The notes beneath the pieces are model-generated. The model made no database searches. It was not told the origin of the DNA and saw only the letters and a list, made by a program, of their open reading frames with translations. A stretch of DNA of 64,000 bases from Demequina flava (GTDB taxonomy: Bacteria > Actinomycetota > Actinomycetes > Actinomycetales > Demequinaceae). Both the position numbers and the translations under genes were made by a program. Position 1 is the stretch's first letter, and each line of letters begins with the position of its first letter. The stretch is taken from the NCBI RefSeq assembly GCF_000975035.1, contig NZ_BBRA01000001.1:186001-250000 (forward strand), in the 5' to 3' direction. Positions 59,137 to 63,061 of this stretch are shown one piece after another.

Positions 59137-59163
59137 CCAACCTCGGGCCGCTTGGCACCGAAT
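59137..59163 (+). promoter_or_regulatory. candidate sigma-K-type promoter of dipZ
   Basis: CCAACC (59137-59142), 15 bp, CCGAAT (59158-59163). It resembles the sigma-K promoter elements described in M. tuberculosis (CCATCC and CCGAAT, from memory) and has the same spacing as the copy at 61234. The -10 element ends 7 bp before ATG 59171, so a transcript from here would be leaderless. Confidence 0.55.
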
Positions 59164-59170
59164 GCCCCAC

Positions 59171-60859
59171 ATGATCACGCTCACCATCGTCGGCTTCCTG
59201 TCCGGCATCATCACGGCGCTGAGCCCGTGTGTGCTGCCGGTCCTCCCTGCGATCCTCACAAGTTCCGTCCAAGATGGCGCCACGTCGCGCCGCCGGCCCC
59301 TCATCGTTGTGTTGGGTCTCGTCACCAGCTTCGCGTTCTTCACGCTGTTGGGTGGCCTGCTCCTCAGTTCGCTCGGCCTGCCCGATGACCTGCTCCGCTG
59401 GGCGGGAATCATCATCCTCGCCATCGTGGGACTGGGACTGGCGATCCCGCCGCTGGGTGAACTGCTCCAGCGCCCGTTCGAGCGCATTCGTCCCATCCAG
59501 ATGGACCGCGACGGCAACGGCTTCGTCATGGGCCTTGCGCTCGGACTCGTCTTCGTTCCGTGCGCCGGCCCCATCCTCGCGTCCATCACCGTTCTCGCCG
59601 CCACCAATGGCTTCAGCTGGGGACTCGTGACTCTGACGTTGTCCTTCGCCGCCGGAATCGCAATCCCCCTGCTGGGCTTCGGGCTCGCGGGTCAGGCCAT
59701 GGGCTCGCGCATCTCCTTCGTGCGTGAACGCCTGAACGCTATCCGCATCGGCTCCGGCGTGGTCCTCATGCTCACCGCCCTGGTCATCGCGACAAATATC
59801 GCCGAGCCGCTGCAGCGCTGGGTTCCCGGCGTGCTCGCCAGCGCCCAGGAGGCCATCGAGGACAACGACACCGTCCGCACCGAACTCGACGATCTCCAGG
59901 GCCGCGAAGAGCAAACAGCCGCTGTTGGCGCGATGACCTTCGACGAGTGCGAGGACGCAGGAGGCGACGTGCTGCGCAATTGCGGCCCCGCCCGCGACCT
60001 CCCCGGAATCCAAGAGTGGCTCAACACCCCGGATGGCGAGGCCGTTGATCTCGACAACCTCGACGGCCCCGTGCTGATCGATTTCTGGACCTATTCCTGC
60101 ATCAACTGCCAGCGCACCTTCCCCTACATCACCGAGTGGGACGACCGCTACCGCGATGAGGGCCTGACAATCGTGGGCGTGCACTCCCCCGAATTCGCAT
60201 TCGAGAAGGAGGTGGGCAATGTCGAGGACGCAGCCGAGCGCTACGGGATCGAGTACCCCATCGCGATCGACAATGACTTCGAGACCTGGCGCGAGTGGGA
60301 CCAGCGCTTCTGGCCCGCCCACTACCTCGTGGACTCGTCCGGAACCGTGGTTCAGGTCCACTACGGCGAGGGTGCCTACGACGACACCGAGCGACTGATC
60401 CAGGAGCTCCTCGACTCCGATCAGCAGGACGTCGTCGAGGCCGATCCCGGCAACCACACCTCGGGCCGCACCCACGAGACGTACGTGGGCTACGGACGCC
60501 TCGAGTACGCCGAGAACGAGGACCAGGTTGTCCGCGACGAGCCCACGACTTACACCTACGGGTCCACGCCCGGCGAGGACATGTTCGCCTATCGGGGCGA
60601 GTGGACCTTGACCGACGAGTACGCCTTGGCTGGGGCCGATGCTTCACTCACCTTGAACTATTACGCGGCCGATGTTCACCTCGTCATGGCAGGTGAGGGA
60701 ACCGTAACCGTCACTTCCCAATCGACGGGTGAGACCACCGAGGTGGTCGTGGACGGCACCTCGGATCGCTACGACCTGGTGCTCGGGGAACCCGAGCGCG
60801 ACGTCATCGACATCGAGTTCGAGGAAGGCATCGAGGTTTACGCCTTCACCTTTGGGTAA
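59171..60859 (+). CDS. dipZ: DipZ: CcdA-like electron carrier fused to thioredoxin domain
   Basis: 562 residues from ATG 59171. The N-terminal half is CcdA-like with six helices and paired cysteines (ALSPCVLPVLPAILTSSV and LVFVPCAGPILASITV) that bring reducing power across the membrane. An extracytoplasmic thioredoxin/TlpA-like domain carries CxxC in FWTYSCINCQRTFPY with RFWPAHYLVD. The C-terminal beta domain (DASLTLNYYAADVHLVMAG) is the carbohydrate-module-like end of mycobacterial DipZ. In M. tuberculosis dipZ lies in the sigma-K regulon, which matches the genes here. Confidence 0.9.
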   Translation: MITLTIVGFLSGIITALSPCVLPVLPAILTSSVQDGATSRRRPLIVVLGLVTSFAFFTLLGGLLLSSLGLPDDLLRWAGIIILAIVGLGLAIPPLGELLQRPFERIRPIQMDRDGNGFVMGLALGLVFVPCAGPILASITVLAATNGFSWGLVTLTLSFAAGIAIPLLGFGLAGQAMGSRISFVRERLNAIRIGSGVVLMLTALVIATNIAEPLQRWVPGVLASAQEAIEDNDTVRTELDDLQGREEQTAAVGAMTFDECEDAGGDVLRNCGPARDLPGIQEWLNTPDGEAVDLDNLDGPVLIDFWTYSCINCQRTFPYITEWDDRYRDEGLTIVGVHSPEFAFEKEVGNVEDAAERYGIEYPIAIDNDFETWREWDQRFWPAHYLVDSSGTVVQVHYGEGAYDDTERLIQELLDSDQQDVVEADPGNHTSGRTHETYVGYGRLEYAENEDQVVRDEPTTYTYGSTPGEDMFAYRGEWTLTDEYALAGADASLTLNYYAADVHLVMAGEGTVTVTSQSTGETTEVVVDGTSDRYDLVLGEPERDVIDIEFEEGIEVYAFTFG

Positions 60860-60976
60860 AGGACTTGGCCAAGATTTTGCCCGTCTCGAGTGGAAGAAAC
60901 GGACATTTCGGGCGTGAATGGTAGAGGCGGGTCAGAGTGGCTCGCCGCAGTACTAAGTCCCCAGGAGGTATCCACC

Positions 60977-61135
60977 ATGGAGCTTCGTAAGGCACTTGCC
61001 CTTCCCGCCACCGTTCTACTCGCCGGCTCACTGCTGGCCGGTTGCGGAGACTCATCGTCGGACACCAGCGACGACTCAACGATGGACACCGAGATGGAGT
61101 CCACCATGGAATCCACGATGGATTCCGAGGGCTAA
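60977..61135 (+). CDS. small acidic lipoprotein, 52 residues
   Basis: ATG 60977 with AGGAGG upstream. A complete lipoprotein signal (RKALALPATVLLAGSLLAGC) is followed by only about 30 residues dominated by Asp, Ser, Thr, Met and Glu (DDSTMDTEMESTMESTMD), with Met every three to four positions. Too short for an enzyme; probably a surface-anchored metal- or oxidant-reactive tail. It lies between dipZ and a longer paralogue, whose signal peptide is similar. Confidence 0.75.
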   Translation: MELRKALALPATVLLAGSLLAGCGDSSSDTSDDSTMDTEMESTMESTMDSEG

Positions 61136-61233
61136 GACCCCTCACCCTCCCATCCGAGGGGCGGCACCGCAGCATGCGGGGTCGCCCCTCGGCCCATGTC
61201 TGGACCCATGCGCAACAAAAGAGAACGCTGCAC

Positions 61234-61260
61234 CCATCCGCAAGCATCGGCCCTCCGAAT
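61234..61260 (+). promoter_or_regulatory. candidate sigma-K-type promoter of the second lipoprotein and sigma factor
   Basis: CCATCC (61234-61239), 15 bp, CCGAAT (61255-61260), 47 bp before ATG 61308. Both hexamers match the published sigma-K elements as I recall them, and the spacing equals that of the dipZ copy. It would drive the lipoprotein, sigma factor and anti-sigma factor, giving autoregulation. A dispersed AGCATCGGCC motif occupies its spacer. Confidence 0.6.
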
Positions 61261-61307
61261 GCTTGATATCGGGCCACCCCTGGCCCGCACCAACGCAAGG
61301 AGGAATC

Positions 61308-61580
61308 ATGCCTGCACTACGCACATTCGCCGTTCCCGCGGTCATCCTGCTGTCCGGCTCGCTGCTGGCTGCCTGTGGCGACTCGTCCGAGCCCGAGGAC
61401 GCCATGAGCGAAGACACCATGATGGAAGAGTCCATGGAGCCCTCGGAAGACGCGATGATGGAAGAGGACGACGCCATGGAGGAAGACGCCATGGAAGACG
61501 ACTCCATGGAGCACGACGAGGACTCGATGGAAGAAGATGACGCCATGGAGGACGACTCCATGGAAGAGGACGACGCGTAA
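61308..61580 (+). CDS. acidic Met-rich repeat lipoprotein
   Basis: 90 residues from ATG 61308 (AAGGAGG upstream). Lipoprotein signal AVPAVILLSGSLLAAC, then a tail of about 65 residues made almost only of Glu, Asp, Met and Ser, built from EDDAMEDDSMEE-type repeats and one His. It is paralogous to the 52-residue lipoprotein before it. The Met/acid pattern suggests binding of soft metals such as copper, or scavenging of oxidants; no enzyme motif. It directly precedes the sigma factor gene. Confidence 0.8.
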   Translation: MPALRTFAVPAVILLSGSLLAACGDSSEPEDAMSEDTMMEESMEPSEDAMMEEDDAMEEDAMEDDSMEHDEDSMEEDDAMEDDSMEEDDA

Positions 61581-61625
61581 CCTAACGCGAGGAATGTGAC
61601 GGAGATGGACGAGAGGGATGACGCG

Positions 61626-62255
61626 ATGAGCGCTCAACGGCACTTGCGCGCCGTCCCCTCGGAGACCTCTGGCGCCACCAGCAAGGACGCGAAACCCGAT
61701 TCCCCGGAAGCCCTCGCATCCTTGCTCGAAAGCACCGCCCGCGGTGACGAGGAGGCGTTTCAAGCGCTGTACGACCTCGTCGCCGCGGCGGTGTTCGGCC
61801 TGGCCGTGCGCATTGTGCGCGACCGCGAAATGGCACGGGACGTGGCACAGGAAGCGCTGGTTGAGGTGTGGCGGCAGTCGTCGCGCTTTGACCGCAGCGC
61901 CGGCACCGCGCGCTCGTGGATCCTCACGATCGCCCACCGCCGCGCCGTTGACCGCGTCCGCTCCGAGCAGGCACATACCGACCGCATGCTCAACCACGGC
62001 GTCGCAGCCGAGGTGGACCACGGCGAGCAGGACGATGTCGTGGACCAGATGCACGGCCAGTGGCGCGCAGCGCGCGTTCGGGCCGGAATGACCGCACTGA
62101 CCGAACGCCAGCGCGAAGCAATTGAGTTGACTTACTTCAAGGGGTATACGCACCGCGAGGTGGCGCATGCCCTCGACGTGCCGCTAGGCACAGCCAAGGC
62201 GCGCATCCGCGACGCCCTTATCAAACTGCGAGACTCGTGGGGAGTGGAACGATGA
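61626..62255 (+). CDS. sigK: ECF sigma factor, SigK-like
   Basis: 209 residues from ATG 61626 (GAGAGG upstream; GTG 61596 and ATG 61605 are alternatives). Sigma-2 region: FQALYDLVAAAVFGLAVRIV, REMARDVAQEALVEVWRQSS, RSWILTIAHRRAVDRVRSEQ. Sigma-4 region: LTERQREAIELTYFKGYTHR, EVAHALDVPLGTAKARIRDA. The sequence and the partner anti-sigma factor fit the SigK group. It should direct RNA polymerase to the CCATCC/CCGAAT-type promoters at 59137 and 61234. Confidence 0.88.
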   Translation: MSAQRHLRAVPSETSGATSKDAKPDSPEALASLLESTARGDEEAFQALYDLVAAAVFGLAVRIVRDREMARDVAQEALVEVWRQSSRFDRSAGTARSWILTIAHRRAVDRVRSEQAHTDRMLNHGVAAEVDHGEQDDVVDQMHGQWRAARVRAGMTALTERQREAIELTYFKGYTHREVAHALDVPLGTAKARIRDALIKLRDSWGVER

Positions 62256-63061
62256 ACGACAACATTCACTCCCTTGCCGCGCCCTACGCCGTGGACGCCC
62301 TCACCGAGCTCGAGCGCACCGCGTTTGAGGCGCACCTGACCTCCTGCGAGGACTGCCAGGAAGAGGTCGTGTCGCTCGCAGGCGCCGTCGAAGAGCTCGC
62401 CCTGGGCGAAGAGACCGCTCCCCCGCTGAGCCTCAAGGGTTCCGTGATGGACGAGGTGCGGCGCACGTCGCAGTTGCCTCCCATCGTGGAATCGGGCGTT
62501 GCTGAGACCGGCGCCGCTGGGCCGCGCACCCACGATTCCGACACCGAGGTGTTGAAAGCCAATTCCGGCGATGACCTGAGCGCCCGCCGCCACCGCCGCG
62601 CCCGCCGCGGATGGGCAGTGTCCGCAGTCGCCGCAGCCTCCGCCGTTGTGCTAACGCTGGCTGGAGTGGCCTGGATGGACGTGCGCTCCGACCGCGAGTC
62701 CGAGCTCGCCATCGAGAAGGACGTGATGATGGTCGCGTCTGCGCCGGACGCCAACTCGATGGACCTCGAACTGGGCAAGGGCCACGTCGTCACGAGCGAG
62801 CGCATGGACTCGCTCGCAGTGATGGGCACGTCTGCCCCCATGCCCGAGGACGGCATGGAGTACCAGTTGTGGCTCGTGATGGCCGACGGCTCCAAGATGG
62901 CCGGCCCCACGTTCATGCCGCACGACGGCGAGTACATGGCCGTTGCCGAGGGCGCGATGGGTGACGTCGCTGCCGTTGCGGTCACGATGGAGCCTCCGGG
63001 CGGCTCGCAGGAGCCCACCTCGGATCCCGTGTGCGTCACCAACATGCCTACTAAAGCCTGA
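62252..63061 (+). CDS. rskA: RskA-like membrane anti-sigma factor
   Basis: 269 residues; ATG 62252 overlaps the sigma factor stop. The N-terminal anti-sigma domain has HSLAAPYAVDALTELERTAF and HLTSCEDCQEEV (HxxxCxxC zinc-binding type). One helix (WAVSAVAAASAVVLTLAGVA) crosses the membrane. The extracytoplasmic part is an anti-sigma-K RskA domain, notably Met-rich (MEYQLWLVMADGSKMAGPTF, MAVAEGAMGDVAAV). It holds the sigma factor until an envelope signal triggers proteolysis. Confidence 0.88.
   Translation: MNDNIHSLAAPYAVDALTELERTAFEAHLTSCEDCQEEVVSLAGAVEELALGEETAPPLSLKGSVMDEVRRTSQLPPIVESGVAETGAAGPRTHDSDTEVLKANSGDDLSARRHRRARRGWAVSAVAAASAVVLTLAGVAWMDVRSDRESELAIEKDVMMVASAPDANSMDLELGKGHVVTSERMDSLAVMGTSAPMPEDGMEYQLWLVMADGSKMAGPTFMPHDGEYMAVAEGAMGDVAAVAVTMEPPGGSQEPTSDPVCVTNMPTKA

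Follow-up and report, generated by a model that had tools for sequence, protein, structure and literature searches.

Identification of the SigK/RskA locus

We analysed a 64-kb stretch of the Demequina flava genome (the window), focusing on a locus for an extracytoplasmic function (ECF) sigma factor and its anti-sigma factor. The host is a marine actinobacterium with a 2.55 Mb genome. The gene order, on the forward strand, is dipZ, lip1, lip2, sigma factor and anti-sigma factor (Table 1). The lip genes encode lipoproteins rich in methionine (Met). Upstream of dipZ is a divergent gene, patatin-like by sequence. The closest relatives of dipZ, at 87%, are in D. globuliformis and D. sediminicola. 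An original prediction, made from the sequence of the window, had described a SigK-like regulon here. The sigma factor, RskA-like anti-sigma factor, dipZ and two lipoproteins that it listed were all found.

The sigma factor has Pfam Sigma70_r2 and Sigma70_r4 domains, corresponding to sigma-70 regions 2 and 4. Its best match among 100 from NCBIfam is PRK09646 SigK (E 1.2e-62), at 211 bits against a curated threshold of 226. The nearest solved structure is SigK of Mycobacterium tuberculosis (4NQW, E 3e-37). The protein contains no cysteine; Ala172 and Ser211 occupy the positions of M. tuberculosis C133 and C183, which are needed for activation. This cysteine pair does not define the family, and SigK proteins without it are known (PMC7509140). 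We considered and rejected cysteine loss as a special trait of this SigK. It is common to nearby genera, and the pair is absent from all 29 loci of our class-wide comparison set (the nearest SigK loci sampled over the class).

The anti-sigma factor matches RskA_N, zf-HC2 and RskA_C, as expected for the RskA (AS19-1) architecture. Its N-terminal sequences HSLAAPYAVDAL and LTELERTAFEAHL resemble the AS19-1 consensus (PMC7406223). HX3CX2C is missing from RskA at loci L043 and L044 and present in the others. DipZ matches its M. tuberculosis namesake (5CYY/2HYX, E 6.8e-71), with a CcdA-type membrane domain, a thioredoxin CxxC domain and a C-terminal domain resembling a carbohydrate-binding module (CBM). 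Several Demequina (L069, L070, L072, L073) encode a second SigK/RskA-like pair, with no Met-rich genes and a Met-poor ectodomain.

Table 1. Features of the locus and of a gene adjoining ccdA. Positions are those of the window unless a contig or locus is named.
Feature	Position	Strand	Description
SigK-type promoter of dipZ	59137..59163	+	-35 CCAACC 59137-59142, N15, -10 CCGAAT 59158-59163
dipZ	59171..60859	+	CcdA/DsbD membrane domain, thioredoxin domain (SCINCQ), C-terminal Thioredoxin_10 (CBM-like)
lip1	60977..61135	+	First Met-rich lipoprotein, 52 aa
SigK-type promoter of lip2	61234..61260	+	-35 CCATCC 61234-61239, N15, -10 CCGAAT 61255-61260
lip2	61308..61580	+	Second Met-rich lipoprotein, 90 aa; signal peptide, lipobox LAAC
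ECF sigma factor	61605..62255	+	SigK-type (ECF19)
Anti-sigma factor	62252..63061	+	RskA-type; N-terminal anti-sigma domain with HX3CX2C, one membrane helix, RskA_C ectodomain
RskA ectodomain	62672..63058	+	129 residues, 15 Met
AztD-like gene, L122	522-1880	-	Zinc metallochaperone lipoprotein
AztD-like gene, this genome	C3, about 1075021-1076379		Zinc metallochaperone lipoprotein

Conserved promoters precede dipZ and lip2

The M. tuberculosis SigK promoter consensus served for comparison. The two matched elements of the original prediction, before dipZ and lip2, are both present and conserved across the genus. For dipZ, we aligned upstream regions of this genome and 28 congeners (n = 29). The alignment is gapless from the -35 element to the start codon. 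All 29 sequences carry the promoter with identical spacing and exactly 7 nt between the -10 element and ATG. The consensus is CC(A/G)(A/T)C(C/T), 15 bases, (C/A/T)CGAA(C/T/G), 7 bases, ATG. Outside the elements, flanks and spacer vary; most positions are near background, with few exceptions adjacent to the elements. Because only 7 bases separate the -10 element and ATG, the dipZ mRNA is probably leaderless, its 5' end coinciding with the start codon or nearly so.

The lip2 element was found in 30 of 30 sequences, always with a 15-base spacer. It lies 40–52 nt upstream of the start codon (47 nt in this genome) and is followed by a good ribosome-binding site. Upstream of lip1, which is restricted to the nearest ten or so species, we found no SigK-type promoter in about ten species, and the region is otherwise conserved. 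It includes a conserved stretch (60870–60975) with the inverted repeat GGCGGGTCAGAGTGGCTCGCC, seen in about ten species. Another promoter, or control at the RNA level, may act on lip1. Promoters of the CCATCC-N15-CCGAAT type stand before dipZ and a lipoprotein gene. A SigK-type regulon is almost certainly real, and we infer that the promoters depend on this sigma factor.

A small predicted regulon with a second redox locus

We scanned the whole 2.55-Mb genome by pattern searches. The pattern CCAWCC-N15-CCGAAY gave four matches; two are the dipZ and lip2 elements and the other two lie within open reading frames (ORFs). Relaxation to CCAWCC-N15-HCGAAY gave seven, and the reversed control gave one. 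Four of the seven precede genes, namely dipZ, lip2, ccdA and a thioredoxin lipoprotein gene. The ccdA element (contig C3, 1076616, + strand, -10 TCGAAC) is 35 nt upstream of ATG. The element of the thioredoxin lipoprotein (C3, 1078506, - strand, -10 ACGAAT) is 62 nt upstream. These two genes form a second locus, apart from that of dipZ and sigK. Congener thioredoxin lipoprotein genes mostly carry the motif and, in four species, are leaderless with the 7-nt spacing. Leaderless examples with a Met-rich linker are at L079 (7398–8030, - strand), L125, L126 and L128. Next to the putatively SigK-controlled ccdA, and divergent from it, is a gene for a lipoprotein resembling the zinc metallochaperone AztD (318 bits against a cut-off of 400).

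In GC-rich relatives, strict counts of CCRWCC-N15-CCGAAY are mostly chance matches. Hence, position before genes was used as the criterion. Scored near the gene start, a promoter with at least 11/12 matching positions precedes the fasciclin lipoprotein gene or sigK at 13 of the 29 class-wide loci in other actinobacteria, and at 0/29 on the opposite strand. A stricter scan of the same loci found 6/29, because many have CAATCC. Genome G014 lacks dipZ and lip2 at this locus and has the motif directly before sigK. Hence, SigK probably controls its own gene there.

Met-rich lipoproteins in place of fasciclin proteins

Most of the class-wide loci carry a fasciclin (MPT83-like) lipoprotein gene directly upstream of sigK. 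The order in this genome and 30 of 31 congener loci is instead dipZ, Met-lipoprotein, sigK and rskA. At the exception, L066, no Met-rich lipoprotein was found. Comparative genomics thus supports the predicted conserved SigK/RskA circuit with a different effector, as do the 4NQW, RskA_N/RskA_C and DipZ matches and the same-type promoters elsewhere. The further claim, that mpt70/83 have been replaced, holds for this genome, in which a search for PF02469 found no fasciclin gene. It does not hold genus-wide; 13 of 36 congeners retain a fasciclin gene at another site, mostly beside a second, divergent dipZ. At L081–L084, the fasciclin genes carry Met-rich linkers and adjoin a second dipZ that is 43–46% identical.

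Domain searches with Lip1 and Lip2 found no domain. Mature Lip2 is 18% Met and 53% Asp/Glu, with no Ile, Leu, Val, Phe, Trp or Tyr. Across the genus, the mature Met-lipoproteins contain 18% Met (range 13–21%), 42% Asp+Glu and about 0.1% of those six residues. Since Met stands at 18% while other hydrophobic residues are at about 0.1%, the thioether, not hydrophobicity, seems to be kept. In 25 sequences, Met residues are spaced by 1, 4, 5, 6 or more positions, with peaks at 1 and 5, and never by 2 or 3. The spacing of 5 matches MXKDX. Lip2 matches the family TIGR02953 penta_MxKDx with E 2e-6 and 27.6 bits, under the cut-off of 41.

The thioredoxin lipoprotein too has an acidic Met-rich stretch, as its linker; in this genome, 7 of the 58 linker residues are Met. 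The stretch recurs in fasciclin lipoproteins of Demequina and of two further genera of its order. That this stretch is common to thioredoxin and fasciclin lipoproteins of the genus is new. The free lipoprotein looks like a Met-rich tail without a domain.

The RskA ectodomain is rich in Met

Met makes up 8–14% of the RskA ectodomain in Demequina, compared with 0–5.4% in 36 comparison loci. These loci include SigK/RskA paralogues from the Demequina genomes themselves, whose ectodomains have 0.8–1.7% Met. Hence, genome composition is not the cause. At nine ectodomain columns, Met is near-invariant within the genus, and other residues mostly take its place outside. This Met-rich outer domain, with its nine positions, is likewise new. 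An AlphaFold2 model predicts a beta-sandwich (mean predicted local distance difference test score 91), and a fold search against solved structures gave no significant match.

A tree places G014 inside the genus, with G023 as its sister (support 100/97). Hence, dipZ and the Met-lipoprotein were lost secondarily in G014. RskA of G014 keeps two of the nine conserved Met. G023 (L042) keeps dipZ, only one Met-lipoprotein and five of the nine. The parallel loss in G014 of RskA Met and of dipZ with the Met-lipoprotein is suggestive, and concerns one lineage. Over all loci, RskA Met correlates with linker Met (Spearman 0.61); outside Demequina, it does not (0.09, p 0.6), so the quantitative link rests on the contrast between the genus and the rest. 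The original prediction contained neither the Met-rich ectodomain and linkers nor the ccdA/thioredoxin branch and leaderless dipZ promoter.

A model for sensing and scavenging of Met oxidants

The genes, their promoters, the specificity of the regulon, its conservation and the Met enrichment of sensor and effectors are the basis for a model, to which we give a probability of roughly 0.5. The SigK circuit would be rewired to sense and scavenge Met oxidants, in the manner of MrpX/BcrX but without MsrP. RskA would tether the ECF19-type sigma factor at the membrane. An extracytoplasmic stress, probably a Met oxidant (hypochlorous acid, other reactive chlorine or oxygen species, or singlet oxygen), would oxidise conserved Met of the RskA ectodomain. 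We infer that this releases SigK, by proteolysis or a conformational change. Freed SigK would then turn on, via CCAWCC-N15-HCGAAY, a small regulon of dipZ, lip2, ccdA and the thioredoxin lipoprotein with its Met-rich linker. On the outside of the membrane, the lipoproteins and linkers, disordered, acidic and rich in Met, may act as sacrificial thioether sinks. DipZ, CcdA and thioredoxin would pass electrons outward from the cell interior, so that envelope thiols stay reduced. Without an exported methionine sulfoxide reductase, the sink would be disposable, or the relay would serve another route of methionine sulfoxide repair. More tentative is a specific form of the model. Here, the RskA ectodomain is itself a direct sensor of Met oxidation (or of thioether chemistry), releasing SigK so that Met-rich lipoproteins and thioredoxins with Met-rich tails are made as sinks at the surface. 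Sensor and effector would then share their chemistry, in a Gram-positive bacterium without MsrP.

Several observations weigh against the oxidant model. MsrP (YedY; PF00174) was found in 0 of 24 Demequina genomes searched, and we saw no signal peptide on MsrA or MsrB of this genome and no exported form. Hence, no repair route for the sink is apparent. The conserved RskA Met could be structural or metal-binding. The loss in G014 is one event, and its sister, with dipZ and one Met-lipoprotein, already lacks four of the nine Met. The TIGR02953 match of Lip2 is under the cut-off, and the AztD-like zinc chaperone gene beside ccdA hints at metals. Light induces mpk83/mpk70 in Mycobacterium kansasii, and dipZ is not induced (PMC9861118). 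This is compatible with an oxidative signal but, because dipZ does not respond, the support is weak.

Alternative explanations

It is very improbable that the two motifs arose by chance or serve another sigma factor. Three of the seven genome matches do lie within ORFs. However, spacing is identical in 29/29 and 30/30 sequences, and the same element stands before sigK in G014 and before fasciclin/sigK genes elsewhere. Because both motifs are conserved across Demequina, chance is ruled out for the pair. The Met enrichment of RskA is a separate question. It could reflect core packing of the beta-sandwich, unrelated to the Met-rich lipoproteins, with RskA sensing something else. The AlphaFold2 model places several of the conserved Met in strands or at the ends of strands, and in G014 some of these positions hold Leu, likewise hydrophobic. 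Homologous ectodomains elsewhere, however, have few Met and are often polar at the same columns, and the enrichment coincides with the Met-lipoproteins. We consider a purely structural role doubtful.

The Met-rich stretches might alternatively be disordered spacers without Met chemistry, with regulation as described; the free lipoprotein would then be what is left of a fasciclin lipoprotein after loss of the domain. Consistent with this, the stretch is a linker in thioredoxin and fasciclin lipoproteins, linkers of several congeners have 0–1 Met (L080, L130, L138, L139), and lip2 occupies the place of the fasciclin gene elsewhere. Nevertheless, Met is kept at 13–21% while other hydrophobic residues are almost absent, and the sensor is enriched in parallel. 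Unlike a remnant, the lipoprotein gene and its promoter are kept in 30/31 congener loci. We regard inert spacers as unlikely. A soft-metal circuit, in which RskA senses Cu(I) or Ag(I) by Met thioethers, acidic Met-rich lipoproteins and linkers bind the metal on the surface of the cell, and DipZ, CcdA and thioredoxin undo copper-catalysed disulfides, is similarly improbable. Met-rich periplasmic proteins such as SilE, CusF and PcoC bind copper or silver, and fixed Met positions in RskA would suit a metal site. The AztD-like gene adjoining ccdA gives mild support. Conversely, the Cu(I) motifs MxM and MxxM (spacing 2 or 3) were not found in the 25 Met-lipoprotein sequences. These proteins have at most one or two His, their sole Cys is the lipidated one, and no copper gene was seen at the locus.

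A dispersed 9-mer in the window

The commonest 9-mer in the window is GCATCGGCC, often as AGCATCGGCCC. There are 28 copies in 64 kb, compared with 1.9 expected from dinucleotides, and 47 in 111 kb of this genome. Copies occur on both strands, within and between genes (for example 1502-, 24725+, 56584+, 59099+, 61244+ and 63763-). The 9-mer is overrepresented in this part of the genus, and other species have hardly any copies. It resembles a DNA-uptake-type or other dispersed signal.

Comparison with known systems

We conclude that Demequina has a genus-wide, rewired SigK regulon. Its novelty lies in the sensor domain rich in Met and in the Met-rich tails that its proteins share. The M. tuberculosis regulon (mpt83, dipZ, mpt70 and sigK-rskA) likewise has an ECF19-type sigma factor, an RskA-type anti-sigma factor and dipZ under its own SigK-type promoter. 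It also includes ccdA and an MPT53-like thioredoxin lipoprotein, as appears to be the case in Demequina. By contrast, the Demequina locus has no fasciclin protein; dipZ is next to sigK, with the Met-rich lipoprotein between the two. Demequina SigK lacks both regulatory cysteines, and its RskA has HX3CX2C and a Met-rich ectodomain. RskA of M. tuberculosis is independent of zinc (PMC7406223). In the mpt83-sigK-rskA cassette of other actinobacteria and some Gram-negatives (PMC7509140), a lipoprotein gene is also directly upstream of sigK-rskA, with a SigK-type promoter. The Demequina lipoprotein differs in being a Met-rich tail without the fasciclin domain.

Lip2 resembles the TIGR02953 MXKDX repeat proteins in having a signal peptide followed by Met every five residues. 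It differs in being lipidated and in having Glu/Asp in place of Lys-Asp. In the ECF16 systems of Azospira and Brucella, a Met-rich MXKDX peptide is a sacrificial hypochlorite sink that MsrPQ repairs; in Brucella, BcrS/AbcS, which HOCl induces, controls the peptide (PMC8315932). Like SigF/NrsF-MrpX-YedYZ of Azospira and BcrS/AbcS-BcrXQP of Brucella, the Demequina circuit has an ECF sigma/anti-sigma pair, a small exported Met-rich repeat peptide with Met spacing of about 5, and envelope redox enzymes. In Demequina, control of the peptide by the pair is indicated by promoter conservation. The Azospira and Brucella systems have ECF16, a six-helix NrsF-type anti-sigma factor and MsrPQ, whereas Demequina has ECF19, RskA and DipZ/CcdA/thioredoxin, and no MsrP. 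The Demequina repeats are acidic rather than Lys-containing and belong to a lipoprotein, and the sensor is Met-rich.

The stimuli of SigK/RskA were called obscure in 2023 (PMC9861118). The Demequina circuit bears on this signal and on the function of MPT70/MPT83 and DipZ, and leads to a specific proposal. Its effector has lost the fasciclin domain and is now Met-rich only, and its sensor ectodomain has gained conserved Met. If the model is true, a SigK/RskA circuit responds to Met-reactive stress at the surface of the cell. The circuit would then be a Gram-positive counterpart to MrpX/BcrX, the hypochlorite sink of proteobacteria, with a sigma factor of another ECF family.

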